64,000 nucleotides of DNA from contig FN649732.1 in assembly GCA_000310025.1 (NCBI GenBank), forward strand, positions 358,169-422,168. Reading direction: 5' to 3'. Of the stretch, positions 3,590 through 62,763 are shown one piece after another (within the stretch, counting starts at the first letter, position 1; the number at the start of each line of letters is the position of its first letter). Both the position numbers and the translations under genes were made by a program. The notes under the pieces are model-generated. The model did not search any database. It saw only the letters and a program-made list of their open reading frames with translations, and was not told where the DNA came from. Source of the stretch: Ectocarpus siliculosus. Its lineage: Eukaryota > Sar > Phaeophyceae > Ectocarpales > Ectocarpaceae.

Positions 3590-6278
3590 TCAAGAATCCT
3601 CTGTTGCGAACTGGATATCCCCGAACAGCTTCCCGCCGTTCTCAACCTGGATACCCCGGTATCGGATCGTCTGCGACAACACCAAAATGAGACAGATTTT
3701 GAGACAAGCAAGGGGAGACCGAGGAGCGAAGGGGGGAGGGACGTCATTGTTCACCCAGCTTGCACCTGCTTTGCGCAGAGCAGCACAGAAAAACGACCAC
3801 GGCGGTGCGGGCAGGCAGGCTATATACCGTGGTTCGCGGCCTTGCGCATGTACCGTCGCAAACTATGCATACAGCAGTAACCTCACCCCCTTGGCCTCGC
3901 CGCTGCTCGTAACGTTAAGTCCCTCCGACAGGCGGAGGTGGCCGTCGAACTTGCCCGCGATCTTAGCGTTCTGGGCCTTGGTCGCTCCGGTAAGGACTCC
4001 TGGAAGAACCAAAAGGAACAAAAAACCATACGGCCAACGGATTGTCGGTTTGTATCCATTGCACGAGCACAACTTGCAAACGTTGTTCCCCGCGATACGG
4101 AGGCAGCACGAGCTTTAGAGCAGCCACGCATCTCGAGCAACGCGTCCAAAAGGAAACGACGCGCAAATGGGGTTGGACGACAACGAAAAAGAGTGGGGTG
4201 GCACCTTTTTCAATTCCCTGCCCACAACCGTGATCCCCCTGCCGACGCATAAAACGGCCCCAAGATTGAAGTTTCCCGAGTGGAATTGATTGTCGAAAAC
4301 GGACTTCTTGTCAAGGGTTCCTCCGAGGGGGTAGGGTACAAAAATTTTCGTCCAATCCTTCTTGATTTGTGGCGCCACAACGCATCGAAGCAAATCTTGA
4401 CGGCCAGAACGTTGTTCGCAACAAGGGTTACACAAATCTCGTCCCATCCTTCTAATTTTGTGGCTTGTGGCGTCACAACGCATCGAAGCAAATCTTGGGG
4501 GGTCAGAACGATGTTCGCAGCATTCGGCCCCACAAGTGCGCTACAGCAGTGGGCGGTGGCACGCGCTCGCGTCTATGCCGGGGGGGCTTCTGCTTGGAAA
4601 TCGCCAGCGACTTCGTTTATCTCGACCCCGGGTAACTCAGAACAAACTCCAAACGAAACGATAGCCCTCGCCGGGGTGGCGTAGAAATCTAGACTACGGC
4701 AGCAAGGAGGGTAGTATGATGTTATAAAGGCAGGGAATCTTCACCAAGAGGGAACCCGACAGGGAGACATCAAAGATGGGAGGTCCCCGAAACACCCACC
4801 GAAGAGCGAAACGAAAAAAACGCATCGCCTGCGGAGTCAGGGACGGGAATTCGGAAATTGAAGAACCTCTGTTTAGACTATAATAGAAAGTGTACACACA
4901 CCGCCAGAGAACGACCATCCCCGCTCGAAAAATGACACAGCAGTCGAAGGGATGGCATGCACATAGCTTGGCTTGTTGGAGTGAGTGGGAAGAAAACCAG
5001 CTGGCTGATAATCTTGTCTTGGAAGTCAAAGGGCGGCGGTGGGGTGACCGCTGCTCCCTCTTCCGCAGAGAACTTTGACAGGTCCGTTGGACGAGGTACA
5101 TACTGAAGAGCAAATAAGCCACACATGGTACATGCGGGAGGAACGTGCCGTTAAGGGGGGGAAGAACAGGGGTTTTGACGCTGGCTCTTTTCCATACTTT
5201 AATGCCAAACAGATAGAGAAAACAACCTTCCCGCCAGGGTTAGGTTATAGGCATTCTATTGTCATCAGTAGGGACACCATGAAGAGGCGTCGCGCGTGCT
5301 GGCAAGTTCAAGTTTGCTACTGGAGCGGACCGTAAACCCCTGAACGGAGGGGTGTCCGCAGTAGCTAGTGGCATCAGCTATTGCTGTAACCCGCTACGTA
5401 GTTCAGGAGAATGTAGGGGTCGGTGGCGGCGAGCATGGCTGTGACAAATGTTGGATGCCGCTTGGTTCCGGCGCAGATTTCGGACTGTTTTCAGAGGCTG
5501 CTGCGACCTTCGATATTTCCGCTCCAGTAGCAAACCTGAACGTGCCAGCACGTATGTACGACGCCTCTTCATGGTGTCCTCTACTGATGACAAAAGACTG
5601 CATAACCTTAACCCTCAAAACTGGCCGTATTTGAGCGCCTTCCGTTTCGGCTCTATTGACTTGAATTTAGAATAGCGTGAATTTTTCAAAGGAGGCCTGT
5701 GGAGGTAGACGCGTGAAATGTATTTTTGAGCAGCCTCAAAAGCCGCCCTGTGCGAGAATCAACGATTTCTGTTTCTCGCGATGCCCCCCAACTGGTCTTG
5801 TGTGTCGACTGGGTGTGTCTGTTGTACAATTTCTCGACCTTTTGTTGCGTTTGTTTTCGAAATTCGTCAACGTCGAAACCTATGTTCTTCCCCCCTACAG
5901 TAGGCATATTCGCCCGTTCTGCATGCGATAAGACACGACGCACACTCTGCTCCGGCTTCCGCGCCAGCAAGCAGGCCCACCAAGCCTTCACGAGGACACC
6001 GGTCGTCCAGCACGTCAGGGTGTCTTTTTTCTACTGCTGTACATGTGTATGCAATATGCAACATGTTCGAACCCGTCGGAATACTTGCTCTTCTCTCAGC
6101 GGCAGCAAGCAGCCTTTTCTTTTCTCTCACCGTCGGCCTCAACAACCACCGTCTTTGCCTCTACGTTTCCCGCATCGAAGAAGCCGCGAACGATCACTTC
6201 TTCGCAGTTCTTGATGTCGCCCTTCACTGTGATACCCTGGCCGATAATCACGCGTCCGGCAGTTGTCGGCGTAGCCAT
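3590..6278 (-). CDS. Bactofilin-like cytoskeletal protein, short form (113 aa, 3 exons)
   Basis: Exons on the minus strand are 6278-6131, 3999-3887 and 3670-3590 (148+113+81 nt, intron phases 1 and 0), giving 113 residues and a TGA stop. The protein is almost entirely a bactofilin (PF04519-type) beta-helix: exon 1 has GRVIIGQGITVKGDIKNCEE and an IVRGFFDAGNVEAK rung, exon 2 has NAKIAGKFDGHLRL and VTSSGEAKG, exon 3 has IQVENGGKLFGDIQF. Regularly spaced Gly and Val/Ile form the rungs. Bactofilins self-assemble into non-polar filaments without nucleotide and often bind membranes. The start is the first ATG of exon 1, four residues before the domain context begins. Acceptors have poly(T) tracts ending CAG; donors are GTGAGA and GTGAGG. 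The 2.1-kb first intron carries a dispersed repeat and a fold-back element. It is divergent from a longer paralogue at 7384. No tail or basic N-terminal peptide is present. Homology call is strong; cellular role is unknown. Confidence 0.85.
4421..4682. repeat. Dispersed repeat, copy 1 (second copy at 62520-62763)
   Basis: About 260 bp matches 62520-62763 at roughly 90% identity or better in the same orientation. The 62-kb copy lacks about 20 bp around the CGAAGCAAATCTTGG segment. The upstream 4360-4420 stretch partly repeats the same motif (CACAACGCATCGAAGCAAATCTTG), so this copy contains an internal duplication. It lies in the first intron of the short bactofilin gene. No terminal inverted repeats were seen, so its class is unknown. 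Confidence 0.85.
5238..5614. repeat. Inverted-repeat (fold-back) element in bactofilin intron
   Basis: Arms at about 5238-5328 and 5519-5614 are reverse complements. Shared core: GTCATCAGTAG, GACACCATGAAGAGGCGTCG, GTGCTGGCA.GTTCA and GTTTGCTACTGGAGCGG. The arms are about 90 bp with a ~190-bp spacer. This is consistent with a fold-back or MITE-type non-autonomous element, but no second copy was found in the window. Confidence 0.7.
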
Positions 6279-7383
6279 GGTCTTGTCGATCCTGTTTGAA
6301 ACGGGGGATGGATGAGCGTAGTTTCAGGGGCACGGGCACGCGCGGGGTCTCTCTTCTTGCTGCCGTGTGAATTAATTTCTCGAGCTCGTCGAGAAGAGAT
6401 GAGGGCCGAACAAGCGTGGTGGCCACACAAAAAAAGACCAGCGGAAAAAGCAGCTCTTGATACGGGGGGGGGGGGTTCTGCTGCTACTCCTGCTGCTCGT
6501 GACGTGTCTGTTGTGCGGGTGGCGGTCGAAGAGCCAGGCTAGGCGAGGCAGCATCAGACAGGTGGTGACAAAAACGGTGAGGAGCGCGAAAAAGAGGGTC
6601 CGCAATAATAACCCTCGCTTCTTGCTGTCCACCACTCACCTTCTAGGTGTCTTGTACCGACCGACCGTGATATGGCTGCAAGAGCTCGGGGCGAGTGTGT
6701 GCGACGTGTACGCGTGAGTCCACGGGACGGCGGAAGAGGGGGGAAGGCGCCGAGAGAGATGGTGCAGCAAAATTGGTGTGGTTGATCAAGGTCGAAAATG
6801 CGAATCAAAACAAGAGAGAGAGCGGAACGAAAGATGGGGGTGGCCAAAACGAATGAAACACGGGGCCTCTGAACGATAATTTCTTGCCTGATCCGTGTGT
6901 GCAGGTCCCCATCCGTCATTCCATTCGGCGCCTCGCTTCGTCTCTAGCACAACAGACGAACACGCACCCACACACCTAGGCAGCAGATCGGTGGACCACC
7001 ATACACCGCCGTGCAGGTACGCCGACCCGTCTAACTGTTCTATATGTCGACCTTGTCTTGGGGTGCTTTTTTTTCGAGACACTCAAAACTCAAACCACAC
7101 GCGCGAGACCCGCACTAACACAAAAACAACACAACCAACACCCGCCCCCCTCCCAATACCCCCGTGTTTCTCTCAGCAGTAGCAGCCGCAGCAGCAGCAA
7201 GCAAAGTGCGGAAACTTTTTAGTCAACTCGACGGCGGCGGCAGCAGCAGCAGCGGTAGGCGAAGCAGCAGTAGGCAACGCAGCAGCAGCAACAGACCCAT
7301 CGACCGCTCTTTGTTTGCAGAAGGAGCACAACAAGCAGCACAGCGAGAGCAGCAGCAGCTAGCTACAGTAGCTCATCATCATA
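6279..7383. promoter_or_regulatory. Shared upstream region between two divergent bactofilin genes
   Basis: This 1,105-bp interval separates the start codons of the two head-to-head bactofilin-like genes, so both promoters and 5' UTRs must lie here. The part next to the plus-strand gene (about 7170-7380) is rich in CAG/GCA triplets and looks like 5' UTR. A poly(G) run lies near 6465. No TATA box or initiator could be assigned with confidence. Bidirectional control is inferred from geometry only. Confidence 0.5.
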
Positions 7384-10300
7384 ATGTTCAAGAAGAAGCC
7401 GTCGTTCCGAACGCCGAAGGACTTCACGCCGACCACGACTTCCTCCTCTCCCGAGCCGGCTGCGGCGGCTGCGGCGGCTGCGGCGGCTGCGGCGGCTGCG
7501 GCCGCGGCGGCGGTGGTGGTGCCGGAGCCCAAGCCGGCGGCACCCGTGAAGAAAGCCCTGGCGCCGAAGCCCAAGCCTGCGGGGCCACCCTCGATAGTCC
7601 CGGCCGGCACAAAGCGGGTGCTCGTGGTAGGCAAGTCCGTAGTGATGACTGCGGACGTCGAGAACTGCGACGCCGTGATCGTGCAGGGGAACCTGGACGG
7701 GAACATCGTGGCGAAGTACGTCGTCATCATGAAAGGTGAGAGGGAGAGTGTGTGTACACCATGAGCTCGTTTTTGGACACACGGAACGCGCGGTCGTGTG
7801 GTGGATGTTTTTTTTGTTGCGGATTAATTTTTGTCCTTTGCTGTGTATCATTTTGAGTTACAGTAGTCTGTTGTATGAGGCGATTTTCTTTGAGAGGGTG
7901 CCCGTCGAATGTCTGCGAACGAGCAGCGGGGTTTCTTTTTTCGCCGTCTCGCCTTGTTGTGCACATCTCAAAAGCCCTGACGGCAATTTTTCCCGCGCTG
8001 CTGTAGCATGCGGCGGCAGCAGCAGCGCAGCTTTCCGGCTGTAAATAGATGCCGATGATACCCCCCCCCCTTATTGCCCGCACTTGCTGGTGGTCCACAT
8101 ATGTACCGTACATTTTGCATACCTCGTACCTCCCGTTGTAGCCGACGTTCCGCCTAAACTCATTTTTCGCCCCCCAGCCCCGAGACTTTTGATACAAAAT
8201 GATTCCGTGCCCAAACTTCAATGTGTGGTCGTTGTTGCGTTTTGCCCTTTTACCGCGCGCCGCCGGCCGTTGTGGCAAAAGAGGAGGCGGCGTTGGTTCC
8301 AACGCAAACCGTTCCGTTAGAATCTCGTGTCCCCTTGTTTGCCCCCCCCCCAATTTAGCGCCCCCCCCGGTGTTTGTCATCGGGGTTGGGTTTTCGTCGC
8401 TTGGCAACGACGTTGTAAAACAAGCCAATTCACTTCGTGAACTCGGCAACCAGGTTACCGTTTTTTTTTTTTTTCCTCTGTTTTTTTTTTGCGGTAACCA
8501 TATTGGTGGTCGAGTAGATCATGTTGTGCGGGGTCGAGAAACCTCACTCCGCGCAAGGGGGATGATCGCACCACGTTGTTAAAATGGTCAAGCATCCTCG
8601 AGGCAGTTACACAGTGCTTACAACTGTCTCTGGAAGTGAAAGCACCAGAACATAAATTAAGTCATACGCAGCTGTCATCCGTACGCAAGGAAGTAAGCAC
8701 AAGATGCCGAACACCCTTAGCAGGATGCAGCTCACCCTTCATGCGACTCGCCAAATACCTCACGGTGCTTCGCGCTTGGTGATGTGAGAGCCTGGTCCGG
8801 TGAGAACCCGGCGTGCTCCGTCCCGGCTTAGTAGGGATGCGAGGTTGATGGTCTAACGACTACGGCATGCACGACTATGAGTACACCCCCCCCCCAATTT
8901 AGCGGCAGCAGCAACGGCGGGCAAATGATCTTTGTTTCTCGCTTGCATAGAAAAATTGGTGCTGGATGCCCACGACACAATCAATGTGATTGATGGAGGC
9001 AGGCGGTAGTGTTAAGGAATAATAAAAACACACACAGAAAGACTACCCATTCGAGATATACCCAACAGAAAGACTACCCATTCGAGATATACCCACAGTC
9101 GAACGGGATGTGGTGGAGTCTTTTCAGTGAGTGGAGGGAAACTGGCTGGGTACTGGACTTTTTTCGAGTCTTTTAAGTCTATACACACTATAGTGCTATA
9201 GTGTGCAACAAGTCACCCAAGAGAACGTGATTGCGTACCCGGGGTGTAACTGCTGTGCTGCTGTACGCCCTGAGGGGTACATACCCGCGATGTACGAAGT
9301 GTATTGCGTAACCCGCAGAGGGATTTTTCGCAGTGAAGATCTATCTATCTAGACGACTGCTGTTTAAGACGGTCTTTCTTAGTATTAATGTAGGCATCCT
9401 ATAATGACCACTCGGCGCGTTTGTCCTGTTAGTCCTCGGTGGCTACCCGCCCGCACACTTTTGGTTGATTCACCGGCAATCACATGTATGACACATGTTC
9501 CACCAAACTTGGAACATTGCACGAAAAAAATGAACAAAAAAATAGTTGGAACATTGCGCCCTAATAACTGCTGTGACCAGTTCGGTGCAACATTTTTTGG
9601 CTGTTAATTCGCCGGTTTGTGGCGGGCACTGCTTTGTGAACACGCGAGGCGCCCCGAGTCAGTTGGACCAGTACGGATATTATTACAAGGTACCACTGAG
9701 TTAGAGACCGACCGGACCGAATTTTATTATGAAGAATAACAACAACAACAACAACTGCTGGAACACGGTGCCGTCAGACAAGCATCTAAATTTTTTAGCT
9801 CATGTGTGCACAGGCCTGTTCTTTCATCGGTTTCTGTCGGCATGTCGGGGAACCATCGGTGCAACCATGGTGCCGGTTGGGAGAGTACAGACTACAGACA
9901 CTCATCTTATCCTTCCGCAGATGCGTATGCTACCTAGTACGGTTTTTCAGGCTCAAGCCTTACTCGGTCGAACGTTTGTAGAGAGAGGTACATACCAGTA
10001 TGTACGTAGAATTTAGGTGTCGTGTACAGCTGTGTAACGGCCGTTGTTGATAATCTGCAGAGGAAATTTGAGCCAGAGCCTCGACCAAGAGGTGCTTGCA
10101 TGGTGCCATTAGCCGTTGAGAAGAGAGGTCGTGCTGGCTGTAGGAAACAACCACCTACTCCAGAACATCCGTTTTTCGACTTCTCAGGCCGCTACTGCTG
10201 TAGTATACCATTCGAAGCAGAAGTATTGTTTGTGGATGCCGCGGCGCCAAGCTGCAGCAGCGGCGCCACATTGCAAGAGAGGTGCTTGGACCTGATAGAG

Positions 10301-11971
10301 GACTACAGTAGTGTTGCTGCTGCACCTGTAGTTTGGACTGAAACAGAACGCCGCGGGTCATATTTCAGCTTATTCGTGTTCCGCCCACAAGACGAAAGCG
10401 TCTTCCATGAAGCGGCTCTCCTCTGTGCGCGGGCAGACACAAGACACATGTCTTGTATCTAGCTATCATACAACGTCTTCTCCCGAATTTTTTACTTCGT
10501 CGCCGCGTCACACCAGCCCTGTCCGGGCCACAGCAGTAACACAAAGTTATGTGCTGTTTTTTTTTGCGGCTGCACAAGCGGAGGATATCCTGATACATAC
10601 AGCAGCGTCCACCCACTTATGCGAAACACATTAAACGATTCAACAACATCGAGGCTCACGTTTTGTAAAACAAAATAACAACGGCGTCAGAAAAGGAGCT
10701 CAACGTACGTAGGCAGCTTTGCCGTTTTAGTTTTTGTTCAGGGGGGGGGGGGGGTGTAGTGCAACGCATTGCGTGCTAAATAATTCTTGTATCTTGAAAA
10801 AATCGTGTAGGCTGGAGTGTATTTGCTGGCGCGTGGTGCTGGCTGCATGTTGCTGCGGACCGAAATTTTGCGTTCGTCGACTGCCTTTTACCTTTAACTT
10901 AACCCCGACACCGCCTGCACGAAGGCGACTGGGAGCGCTAATCGAAGACCCCTTGGAAGGCTACTGGGCTATCGTGGGAAGGGGGTCGTGATCGATACTC
11001 TTCATTGAACCAGTTTTTTGATTGACGCGTCTTTGCCCTCGCCCCCCCCCCCCCGCGCGCGCGCGCGTTTCTGCGTTTTTTGTTTACCAGGCGGATGCAT
11101 GCGAGGAACGGTTGTGTGCGAAGAGGCGGACGTGGCGGGGTCCTTCGAGGGTGTGGAGATGACCATTCACCACCGTCTGACGCTCAGCGGCACCGCCAGG
11201 GTCGGGGGCAAGGTAAGAAGCAGAATAACCGAGATTTGGGTCGGGACCGCGCCGTGCGTCCATCTACCATCCGTCAGCTCGTGGCGTTTGTCAGAGGTCC
11301 ATGTCTAAGGCCGCTTAGGAGCGCTGATTCGAAGCATAGAAAAAAATAATGGTCCAAGGGAGAACACTGCTGTTCAAGACCTTGTACTGTATCGGGCACC
11401 CGGCTCTATTCAGAGTATGAGACACCTTGAATATTTTATCTGTGCCAGGCGATTTCACCCGCCCTAGACAGGGCAATCGACCTAAAAAAATCGACGTTAA
11501 ACAGGGACCTCTGCAGAGCTCCCCTCGAGACAGGTGTAACCAGCCTGCTTCTCACTGTCTCGCGCGGTACACCCTGGGACCTCGGGTTTGGAATCCTAGG
11601 ATGCCTCTGCACCCCCACAACCTGCATTATTTCCTCCACAACCTGCATTATTTCCTCCACAGGACACACGCCCAACCTGTGCGGTAGAGAGGGGACTCAA
11701 AAGAAGTTGGGGGCATGCAACGTACGCTTGTGCCAAGTCTGCGTTTTTTTTTTATAGATTTGAAAGGAATGTGGTCTAATTGTAGTATTGTAGTCCACTA
11801 CTTAGGGACCGCCACGCGAGGGGAGACGCGGAAAGGATAGAAGAACAATCGCCACGTATCTTCAGGTCCCCGTTTGTGTGTGTCCAGGTGTCCCGTCGTT
11901 TGTATGTTGTAAGACATTCGGCGGACGACCGAGCGTTTTGATAGCTTGGTACGTTCATTCCTTCAGCCTCA

Positions 11972-12007
<36 letters not shown>

Positions 12008-13563
12008 ACTGCTGCATAACGTCAGACGCTTGGGCGTTGTTTTCATGTCTTGGGGGTGCTGTAGGCAGATTGGTTGGTCGCAAGAACGGTGGCACGCGCG
12101 TGCGGGTGGCCTTATTTGCCTTTTAACTAATTTCTTCTGTGTCCAGCGTACCCGCGTCGGATCGATCTTGACCGTTTGTATTTGAACGGACGGCTGCCGC
12201 TGAGCTTGCGATGGTAGGGATTGCTGTACCCCCCCCCCCCCTCCCCCTCCCTGCCTTTGTATAGTCAACGTCACCGTTCCCAGGATGGGTGCATGGCCGT
12301 CTGCCCACCCCATCCATTGCAGTACCGTATATGACACAAGATAACACACCCCCTTGGCCGATTTTCAAAGCTCGATTTCTCAACAGCAGGAAAAGTCACG
12401 GCGCCGAAAACGGCAGCGTTGGAATCGTCTCGTTGAGAAATTTTCGAAAATGTATCGTTTCGTTTGTGCATCCTCTTCGTCGTGGAGTAATCGAGCTTTG
12501 GAAATCGGTCCAGGGGGTGTGTTATCTTGTGTCATATACGGTAGTTACCCGTAGTAGCCAACCAAATGCTGTCGGTTTACCCCAGCAGCGTGGTGCTATT
12601 TCTTGAGTGGATGACCGTTGCATGTACCTATCTACGAAGAAAGTTATAAGACGAGACGACGATCTCCGTCTCCACCTACCGCCCTACGTCGCCGCAGAAG
12701 CCTGCGACCCGAAAGTGATTTATGATTCCCCACAAAACCATCCGAAGAGGCATTGGTGTCGGGCTAGTCAGTCAAGGGAGGAGAGAGCGGACGGTGCACC
12801 CCCGCCTGTCTATGCGCAACAATACAGCAGGCCTCCCCCACATGCACCCTCAACCTATAGACAGGGGACGCCCGGACACGACTTTTGCGCTTGCTCCTCC
12901 CAATATACCCGCGTTTTCTTCTTCGAGAACGCCTTGTGTCCCGTCCTCAACCCTGTTGTTTGCCTTCTCACGCAGACAACATACCACCGGCTGTCTGTGC
13001 ACGACGGGGCGATCCTGACGGGAGAGCTGCAGTACAAGCCTTCCCTGCGAGACGAGACCGCCGTGCCTGCGCCGCCGGCCGACAAGGGCGAAGCAGAGCC
13101 AGCAACAAAGACCGCTGTCGAGGTGAGAGCTTGATGGTATGCATGCCGTCATTTTTTTTTGTCTCCGGCTGCGGTTGTGTGTGCTGTTGCTCTCGTTTTT
13201 CTGGAACCGTTCCGATCCTCATCGACTGCTCTCGGCCCTAATGGCGTCCGGTAGTTTTTAGGACGACTGGCTTTCCATCCTAGGATCGCGCACGCACCAA
13301 AGGTAATTTACAAAGGCAACAAAGGCAATACAAATTGCCTACATGCCACGAGGGCACCCAAGAGGCGTGACGTTGAAACAGGACGGAAGGCTCAGTTTTG
13401 CCACAAATGAACGTGTCCTTCTGCTGCTGCTGCTGCTGTGCGCGCGTGTGTTTCGCAGGGCGCGGTGCCTCTTGAGGCGACGAGCGATGCCGCATCGACG
13501 GTGGCAAGCGAGACGTGCCCTGAGAAGACAACAGCCGTGACCAAGAGTCCTTCGAAACAGTGA
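7384..13563 (+). CDS. Bactofilin-like cytoskeletal protein, long form (241 aa, 4 exons)
   Basis: Exons are 7384-7735, 11091-11212, 12976-13122 and 13459-13563 (phases 1, 0, 0), giving 241 residues. Residues 1-77 are a basic, Pro/Ala-rich arm: MFKKKP start, an 18-Ala run at about 26-43, then repeated PKP motifs. Residues about 78-180 form the bactofilin beta-helix: RVLVVGKSVVMTADVEN, VIVQGNLDGNIVAKYVVI, EEADVAGSFEGVEM, HHRLTLSGTARVGGK, HRLSVHDGAILTGELQYKP. Residues 181-241 are an acidic/Thr-rich disordered tail. Flanking donors are GTGAGA, GTAAGA and GTGAGA; acceptors end CAG. The first intron is 3.4 kb and holds repeats; a MITE is in the second. Bacterial bactofilins are reported to bind membrane through a short M-F-x-K N-terminal peptide, which MFKKKP resembles. 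The beta-helix call is strong; membrane binding is inference. Confidence 0.85.
8609..8895 (+). repeat. Dispersed repeat, inverted copy at 20622-20906
   Basis: About 280 bp here is the reverse complement of 20622-20906 with moderate divergence. Shared blocks include ACTGTCTCTGG, GTGAAAGCACCAGAA, GCAGCTGTCATCCGTA, GCAAGGAAGTAAGCACAAG and GGTGATGTGAGAGCCTGGTCCGGTGAG. Both copies run into a poly(C) tract at the same end, which may mark an element terminus. It sits in the first intron of the long bactofilin gene. Confidence 0.8.
9033..9095. repeat. Tandem duplication, 30-bp unit
   Basis: The unit AGAAAGACTACCCATTCGAG plus ATATACCCA occurs twice back to back with no differences in its core. It is intronic, with no coding role seen. 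Confidence 0.9.
12323..12543. mobile_element. MITE, ~221 bp with ~58-bp terminal inverted repeats (family copy A)
   Basis: The left arm starts TACCGTATATGACACAAG and the right arm ends with its exact reverse complement, CTTGTGTCATATACGGTA. The arms stay complementary inward through a CACACCCCC block and GATTTTCAAAGCTCGATT. The outermost TA on both sides could be a TA target-site duplication, as in Tc1/mariner-type MITEs. There is no internal coding sequence. Related copies are at 23555, 29930, 53045 and 53779. It lies in an intron of the long bactofilin gene. Confidence 0.85.
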
Positions 13564-62370: not shown

Positions 62371-62519
62371 TGAAACACTCACCGGAGGCAACATCTACAC
62401 ATATTTTACCACACCACACCAATCCACAAAACTCATTATTTCACCATCACTTCTTATACCTAGACGTTTGATCCAGAGGAACCTGTATTCTAGTCTGCTA
62501 CGCTGCGTTCTACCCAGCA

Positions 62520-62763
62520 ACAAGGGTTACACAAATCTCGTCCCATCCTCCTACTTTTGTGGCTTGTGGCGTCACAACTCATCGTCAGAACGTTGTTCGC
62601 AGCATTCGGCCCCTCAAGTGCGCTACAGCAGTGGGCGGTGGCACGCGCTCGCGTCTACGTCGGGGGGGCTTCTGCTTGGAAATCGCCAGCGACTTCGTTT
62701 ATCTCGACCCCGGGTAACCCAGAACAAACTCCAAACGAAACGATAGCCCTCGCCGGGGTGGCG
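62520..62763. repeat. Dispersed repeat, copy 2 (first copy at 4421-4682)
   Basis: Same orientation as the 4-kb copy; both start ACAAGGGTTACACAAATCTC and end CCTCGCCGGGGTGGCGT. Most differences are single bases plus the ~20-bp deletion. High identity across 58 kb suggests a recently active but unclassified element. Confidence 0.85.

Follow-up and report, generated by a model that had tools for sequence, protein, structure and literature searches.

Two spliced bactofilin genes in Ectocarpus

A 64,000-nucleotide stretch of the Ectocarpus siliculosus genome (the window; C7:358169-422168 in a genome of 189 Mb and 492 contigs) carries two divergently oriented genes, gene A and gene B, which, judged by their sequences, are probably nuclear bactofilins of bacterial origin, with B as a membrane-anchored filament subunit and A as an unanchored one. 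Both spliced proteins match the Pfam family PF04519 (Bactofilin) along nearly the entire 98-position profile (2-97), gene A with 63.6 bits (E=2.1e-17) and gene B with 57.4 bits (E=1.9e-15), far beyond chance and well past the curated cut-off of 27.9 bits. All five introns of the two genes are GT-AG. The initial annotation of this DNA had proposed such a Pfam run and had described a head-to-head pair of spliced bactofilins that diverge from a 1.1-kb region, one of them little more than the domain, the other decorated with a basic N-terminal arm and an acidic tail. Our models agree with this description: the genes lie on opposite strands, the domain fills the 113 residues of A, and the 241 residues of B include an arm that is indeed basic (residues 1-78, 12 K/R versus 3 D/E) and a tail that is mildly acidic (residue 180 onward, 6 K/R versus 10 D/E). 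That earlier reading missed both the wider family to which the pair belongs and the membrane-type start of gene B.

Gene A runs on the minus strand from 6278 to 3590 and has three exons. Exon 1 (6278-6131) encodes MATPTTAGRV...VVEAD plus one nucleotide and the opening part of the bactofilin domain, exon 2 (3999-3887) the middle of the domain, both supported by GT-AG splicing and the PF04519 match of the spliced protein, and exon 3 (3670-3590) the end of the domain and the stop codon, including L102 at the position of F130 in Caulobacter crescentus BacA. The start codon stands in a strong context (ACCATGG), and its reading frame is closed by a stop 45 nt before it; an additional 5' exon is possible, since an acceptor-like CAAACAG closely precedes the ATG. 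The strandless region 6279-7383 separates the two start codons by 1,105 bp, a distance that runs from ATG to ATG, not between transcription starts. On its other side, gene B occupies 7384-13563 of the plus strand with four exons. Exon 1 (7384-7735) encodes the MFKKKPSF start, the basic Ala/Pro-rich arm and the opening part of the domain, and is supported by an in-frame stop 12 nt upstream of its ATG, by the rarity of its initial motif and by Pfam. Exon 2 (11091-11212; GT-AG splicing and Pfam) holds the middle of the domain, exon 3 (12976-13122) its end, with L172 at the BacA F130 position, and the beginning of the tail, and exon 4 (13459-13563) the C-terminal tail and stop. The frame is kept across the GT-AG intron before exon 4; this exon is nevertheless the least certain and the weakest point of the models, because retention of intron 3 would give an alternative C-terminus, ...TAVEVRA*, ending at 13134.

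The genome holds a bactofilin family

At least seven further bactofilin genes are present in the same genome, bringing the family to at least nine; the paralogue counts are lower bounds. A Pfam profile search of the genome returned seven places, corresponding to six genes (C24, C6b, C2, C23, C4 and C30). Genes A and B were not among these matches, probably because each is broken into short exons. The seventh gene, C14, was located by collinear weak matches (0.06 and 0.03) and confirmed by translation and a repeat search. With joined or partial domains, all seven further loci score above the PF04519 cut-off (38.8 to 76.1 bits); for C6b, C24, C14 and some others the domain is only partly assembled, as not all of their exons were located, among the missing ones the last exon of C6b, for which we searched. 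Genes A and B are the only neighbouring bactofilin genes among the places found.

Intron positions connect part of this family. B, C2 and C30 have intron 1 at the identical codon and in the identical phase (phase 1, within the first G of GG), which is most simply explained by nuclear duplication from a common intron-bearing ancestor. In an ungapped comparison, intron 1 of gene A has the same phase and sits one codon further on. Intron 2 of A and that of B are both in phase 0, at positions within one codon of each other, where C2 and C30 have no intron. In C6b and C14 the intron 1 position is uninterrupted, and donors are found at ...ATKALK and ...ASTLLE, respectively.

It is very improbable that the genes are bacterial DNA contaminating the assembly, or pseudogenes. 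One locus does resemble a decayed copy: L014 (C6a; G000:C6:2878000-2887900) contains a fragment that matches the first domain exon of C2 almost perfectly. The introns, however, end in GT-AG, the nine genes lie on eight different contigs, each 2.3 to 9.3 million bases long, and A and B have open spliced frames with full-length domains. In L014 itself, the sequence past the donor is altered and no further domain exon was seen there; it is probably a recent partial copy of the C2 bactofilin.

Bacterial relatives and two lineages

In a plasmid collection, the best match of gene A was a bactofilin of Comamonas odontotermitis (WP_224153038.1; 32% identity over 90% of A, 1e-9), and bactofilins above the cut-off occur in 90 of 200 genomes sampled from the phylum of Comamonas. 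Seven of the 18 bacterial stretches fetched (L146, L147, L150-L152, L155 and L156) encode members of a proteobacterial subfamily recognisable by the motifs C-D, AEI.G.F.G and GKI.YG, and parts of this signature are found in the algal copies: C-D is unchanged in B and C2, reads C-E in A and C-A in C6b, and the variant A[EDK][IV].G.[FL].G is present in A, B, C6b and C14. By raw score gene A is closer to the bacterial row L152 (175) than to any algal copy. Overall identity is low, though, with 21-34% between three bacterial rows and the six algal copies that we call type I (A, B, C6b, C14, C2 and C30).

Three trees were calculated, the first with 32 rows (among them 18 of the 30 available bacterial loci and all but one of the 6 plasmid records), the second with 37 rows, for which 7 of the first 32 rows were dropped and 12 of 20 further domain hits added, and the third with 19 rows. 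In the 37-row tree, the six type I copies fall among the C-D-motif bacteria (96/93); the order inside this joint branch is not resolved, and a single type I clade is not rejected (approximately unbiased test, p-AU 0.515). The remaining copies, C24, C23 and C4 (type II), take a different place in the tree, and uniting all nine in one clade is rejected (p-AU 0.016) in a test that was set up after the first tree had been seen. The 32-row tree has the same split between type I and type II. The 19-row tree keeps A, B, C6b and C14 with the C-D-motif bacteria (84/82), places C2 and C30 outside and resolves little within; type I as a single clade is again not rejected (p-AU 0.312), and the tree neither recovers nor rejects a clade of B, C2 and C30 (p-AU 0.337). 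Against these groupings stands that A and B fall on long branches and that the tree program issued long-branch warnings for all three trees. Since the domain provides only about 100 columns and none of the trees is free of the warning, two separate acquisitions of bactofilin lineages are the better-supported reading of the trees, not a proven one.

Wider searches added little to this picture. A scan of genome contigs with the query A3 confirmed no relative, and one with the Comamonas protein yielded 80 loci, all of them, by their titles, from one corner of Burkholderiales and therefore unsuited to a wide tree. A bactofilin of a giant virus has been reported (PMC12192438); our scans of viral contigs for close relatives confirmed none, so that we draw no link to that protein.

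A predicted membrane-targeting peptide

The N-terminus of gene B, MFKKKPSF, and that of its paralogue C6b, MFKRRSSK, resemble the consensus MFSKKKK of 14,337 bacterial bactofilin N-termini, a survey from which non-bacterial entries were left out (PMC12448750). In the bacterial peptide, the two hydrophobic first residues enter the bilayer while the lysines pair with lipid headgroups (PMC12448750). The motif MF.[KR][KR] is rare: in 260 kb of the same genome it is found at 5 of the 2,560 ATGs that begin an open stretch of 30 codons or more, and B and C6b account for two of the five. We thus predict from these comparisons that the basic arm of gene B opens with a membrane-targeting peptide of the bacterial type. 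The model of gene A has no such peptide: it starts MATPTTAG, directly followed by the domain, and of the nine other ATGs on the minus strand of 6279-7383 none reads MF; there may be an exon farther upstream.

A start of the M-F-basic type was sought within about 10 kb of six other paralogues, and none could be tied to the gene concerned; for C2 (L015:2121) and C24 (L016:3470) there are loose candidates at a great distance upstream. Among the seven C-D-motif bacterial relatives, the first methionine begins MFGK[RK] in two (L152 and L155), while no MF-basic first methionine is present in the other five (L146, L147, L150, L151 and L156), from which it follows that the peptide is not general in that subfamily.

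A different arrangement was seen in the bactofilin of the E. coli plasmid pRHB07-C14_2 (L029), where a hydrophobic N-terminal part is followed by an internal MFPKGRK. This protein resembles Proteus CcmA, which is described as having two forms (PMC12448750).

Fold and polymer contact

A profile built from five algal domains matches solved bactofilins among the PDB sequences, namely 2N3D (BacA, 1.1e-7) and 6RIA (3.1e-6). In the alignment to this profile, L102 of A and L172 of B coincide with F130 of BacA and with chain position 105 of 6RIA. BacA with the exchange F130R does not polymerise (PMC12448750). A hydrophobic residue at this contact position is also retained in C2 and C14. The Thermus bactofilin variant F105R is said to behave like BacA F130R.

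Several observations weaken a direct transfer of the bacterial fold and contact to the algal proteins. As a single query against the PDB sequences, gene A found no bactofilin, its best match being a fluorescent protein at 0.63, and gene B found 2N3D as the only bactofilin, at 0.027. A hydrophobic-alternation test did not discriminate, scoring no better than shuffles for a bacterial control as well as for A and B. Finally, the residue at the F130 position is leucine in both A and B, not phenylalanine. This exchange, together with the long branches of several algal copies and the long, low-complexity arm of gene B, would fit a scenario in which the algal genes have lost filament formation and the beta-helix is reused as a binding or scaffold module. 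We regard such a loss as unlikely, given that the contact residue stays hydrophobic in four copies and that two copies retain a membrane-type N-terminus.

The joined domain of C2 (L010) also matches PF18715 (Phage_spike) at 5.3e-6 with 26.7 bits, slightly below the family cut-off of 28.2, which probably reflects common beta-helix repeats.

Does the divergent arrangement imply a functional pair?

The initial annotation had suggested that the two divergent genes might be a co-regulated pair of subunits building one cytoskeletal or cortical filament. In Ectocarpus, 61.7% of the genes flanking intergenic regions adjacent to transcription start sites are in divergent pairs, with a median gap of 409 bp, and expression within such pairs is reported as uncorrelated (0.04 for divergent pairs genome-wide, 0.054 for those under 600 bp; PMC7784034). 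As divergent pairs are both common and uncorrelated, gene order does not support co-regulation, and this part of the annotation has no support so far.

The same data lend weight to the possibility that A and B act separately, either with other paralogues or alone, and that their head-to-head order is ordinary for a brown-algal genome, a possibility to which we give slightly less than an even chance. It agrees with the identities, which are higher for B and C2 (41%) and for A and C14 (36%) than for A and B (32%), and with the intron 1 position that B shares with C2 and C30. Other comparisons draw A and B together: by alignment score, A is nearer to B (147) than to the incomplete C14 (132), a tree with A and B as sisters is not rejected (p-AU 0.206), introns 1 and 2 of the two genes agree in phase and differ in position by no more than one codon, and the sole adjacent pair among the places found consists of one anchored and one unanchored copy. 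A recent tandem duplication as the source of the pair was considered and is not supported at an identity of 32%, with the sister relation standing as just given.

A bacterial locus, L153 (G051:C1:3237900-3240000), likewise contains two head-to-head bactofilin domains, about 550 bp apart and in the same order as in A and B. Its likeness to the algal pair is probably a coincidence.

A possible bactofilin cytoskeleton in Ectocarpus

For the reading that we favour, an anchored B and an unanchored A, the fold of these copies, their polymerisation, membrane binding, mutual contact and cellular role, including any role in wall growth, are what we infer from the bacterial proteins. A and B would each fold into a short beta-helix, and such helices would join end to end into polymers with no need of nucleotides, held by a hydrophobic contact towards the C-terminal end of the domain. 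The MFKKK peptide of gene B would insert into an acidic membrane and pair with it, so that B, and likewise its paralogue C6b, could form membrane-attached filaments, with B on the inner membrane face. Gene A, having no such peptide, would supply a soluble subunit, which may co-assemble with an anchored copy or polymerise by itself.

Bacterial systems offer partial parallels. C. crescentus BacA, whose membrane-targeting sequence is MFSKQAKS, has in common with A and B the PF04519 domain and a hydrophobic residue at the F130 position, and with gene B an N-terminus of the M-F-basic type close to the consensus. It differs from them in that A and B are nuclear, spliced and eukaryotic genes, known here from sequence alone, and in that gene B has a long Ala/Pro-rich arm between its start and the domain. 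A closer analogy for the division into two subunits is Rhodomicrobium vannielii, whose BacC essentially lacks the N-terminal peptide and needs BacA for its localisation (PMC10259793), just as one of the algal proteins has the peptide (B) and the other has not (A). If A were to follow B, the logic would be the same. A and B may share one filament. BacC carries a cadherin-like domain, however, whereas A consists of the core only, and that A depends on B is predicted.

A more far-reaching scheme is doubtful at present: the alga may possess an extra, nucleotide-independent cytoskeleton of bacterial origin, composed of at least nine bactofilins from two acquisitions, in which the anchored B and C6b would recruit A into cortical filaments and may place cell-wall synthesis. 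Brown-algal cells grow by polarised wall deposition, the type of process that bactofilins organise in bacteria.

To our knowledge, bactofilins have been studied almost solely in bacteria. A multigene family in an alga, with a bacterial-type anchor predicted in at least two copies, makes it a testable question whether a working eukaryotic bactofilin cytoskeleton exists. That bactofilins occur in stramenopiles at all, as the initial annotation had stated, is already in print (Deng et al. 2019, as cited in PMC9448923). Those proteins and ours are eukaryotic members of one family, probably from the same wider host group; the citing passage in PMC9448923 is silent on a divergent pair, on two lineages per genome and on a retained membrane peptide. 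Our literature search, in which subscription journals were mostly absent, turned up no earlier account of a bactofilin family in a brown alga, of a genome with two bactofilin lineages or of a eukaryotic membrane peptide of this kind.

Repeats and the remaining window

Of the window's 111 stop-to-stop frames with 140 codons or more, 20 outside 3590-13563 were tested, without a Pfam match at E 0.01, and neither a tRNA nor an Rfam family at gathering score was found in this part of the window. In the genome as a whole, 87 matches to the light-harvesting family PF00504 fit a photosynthetic eukaryote and are consistent with a brown alga.

Two introns of the pair contain repeats. Intron 2 of gene B harbours a hairpin (12323-12543) with two 62-nt arms that are 92% complementary. 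It looks like a small inverted-repeat element, because the window holds related copies at other places, as do L010, L012 and L019. A second inverted repeat, with arms about 86% alike, lies in intron 1 of gene A (5236-5608) and has relatives in the sequence immediately preceding the window (L026). The same intron contains a tandem-like duplicated stretch (4334-4522, 79% alike), another copy of which is found near 62517-62622.

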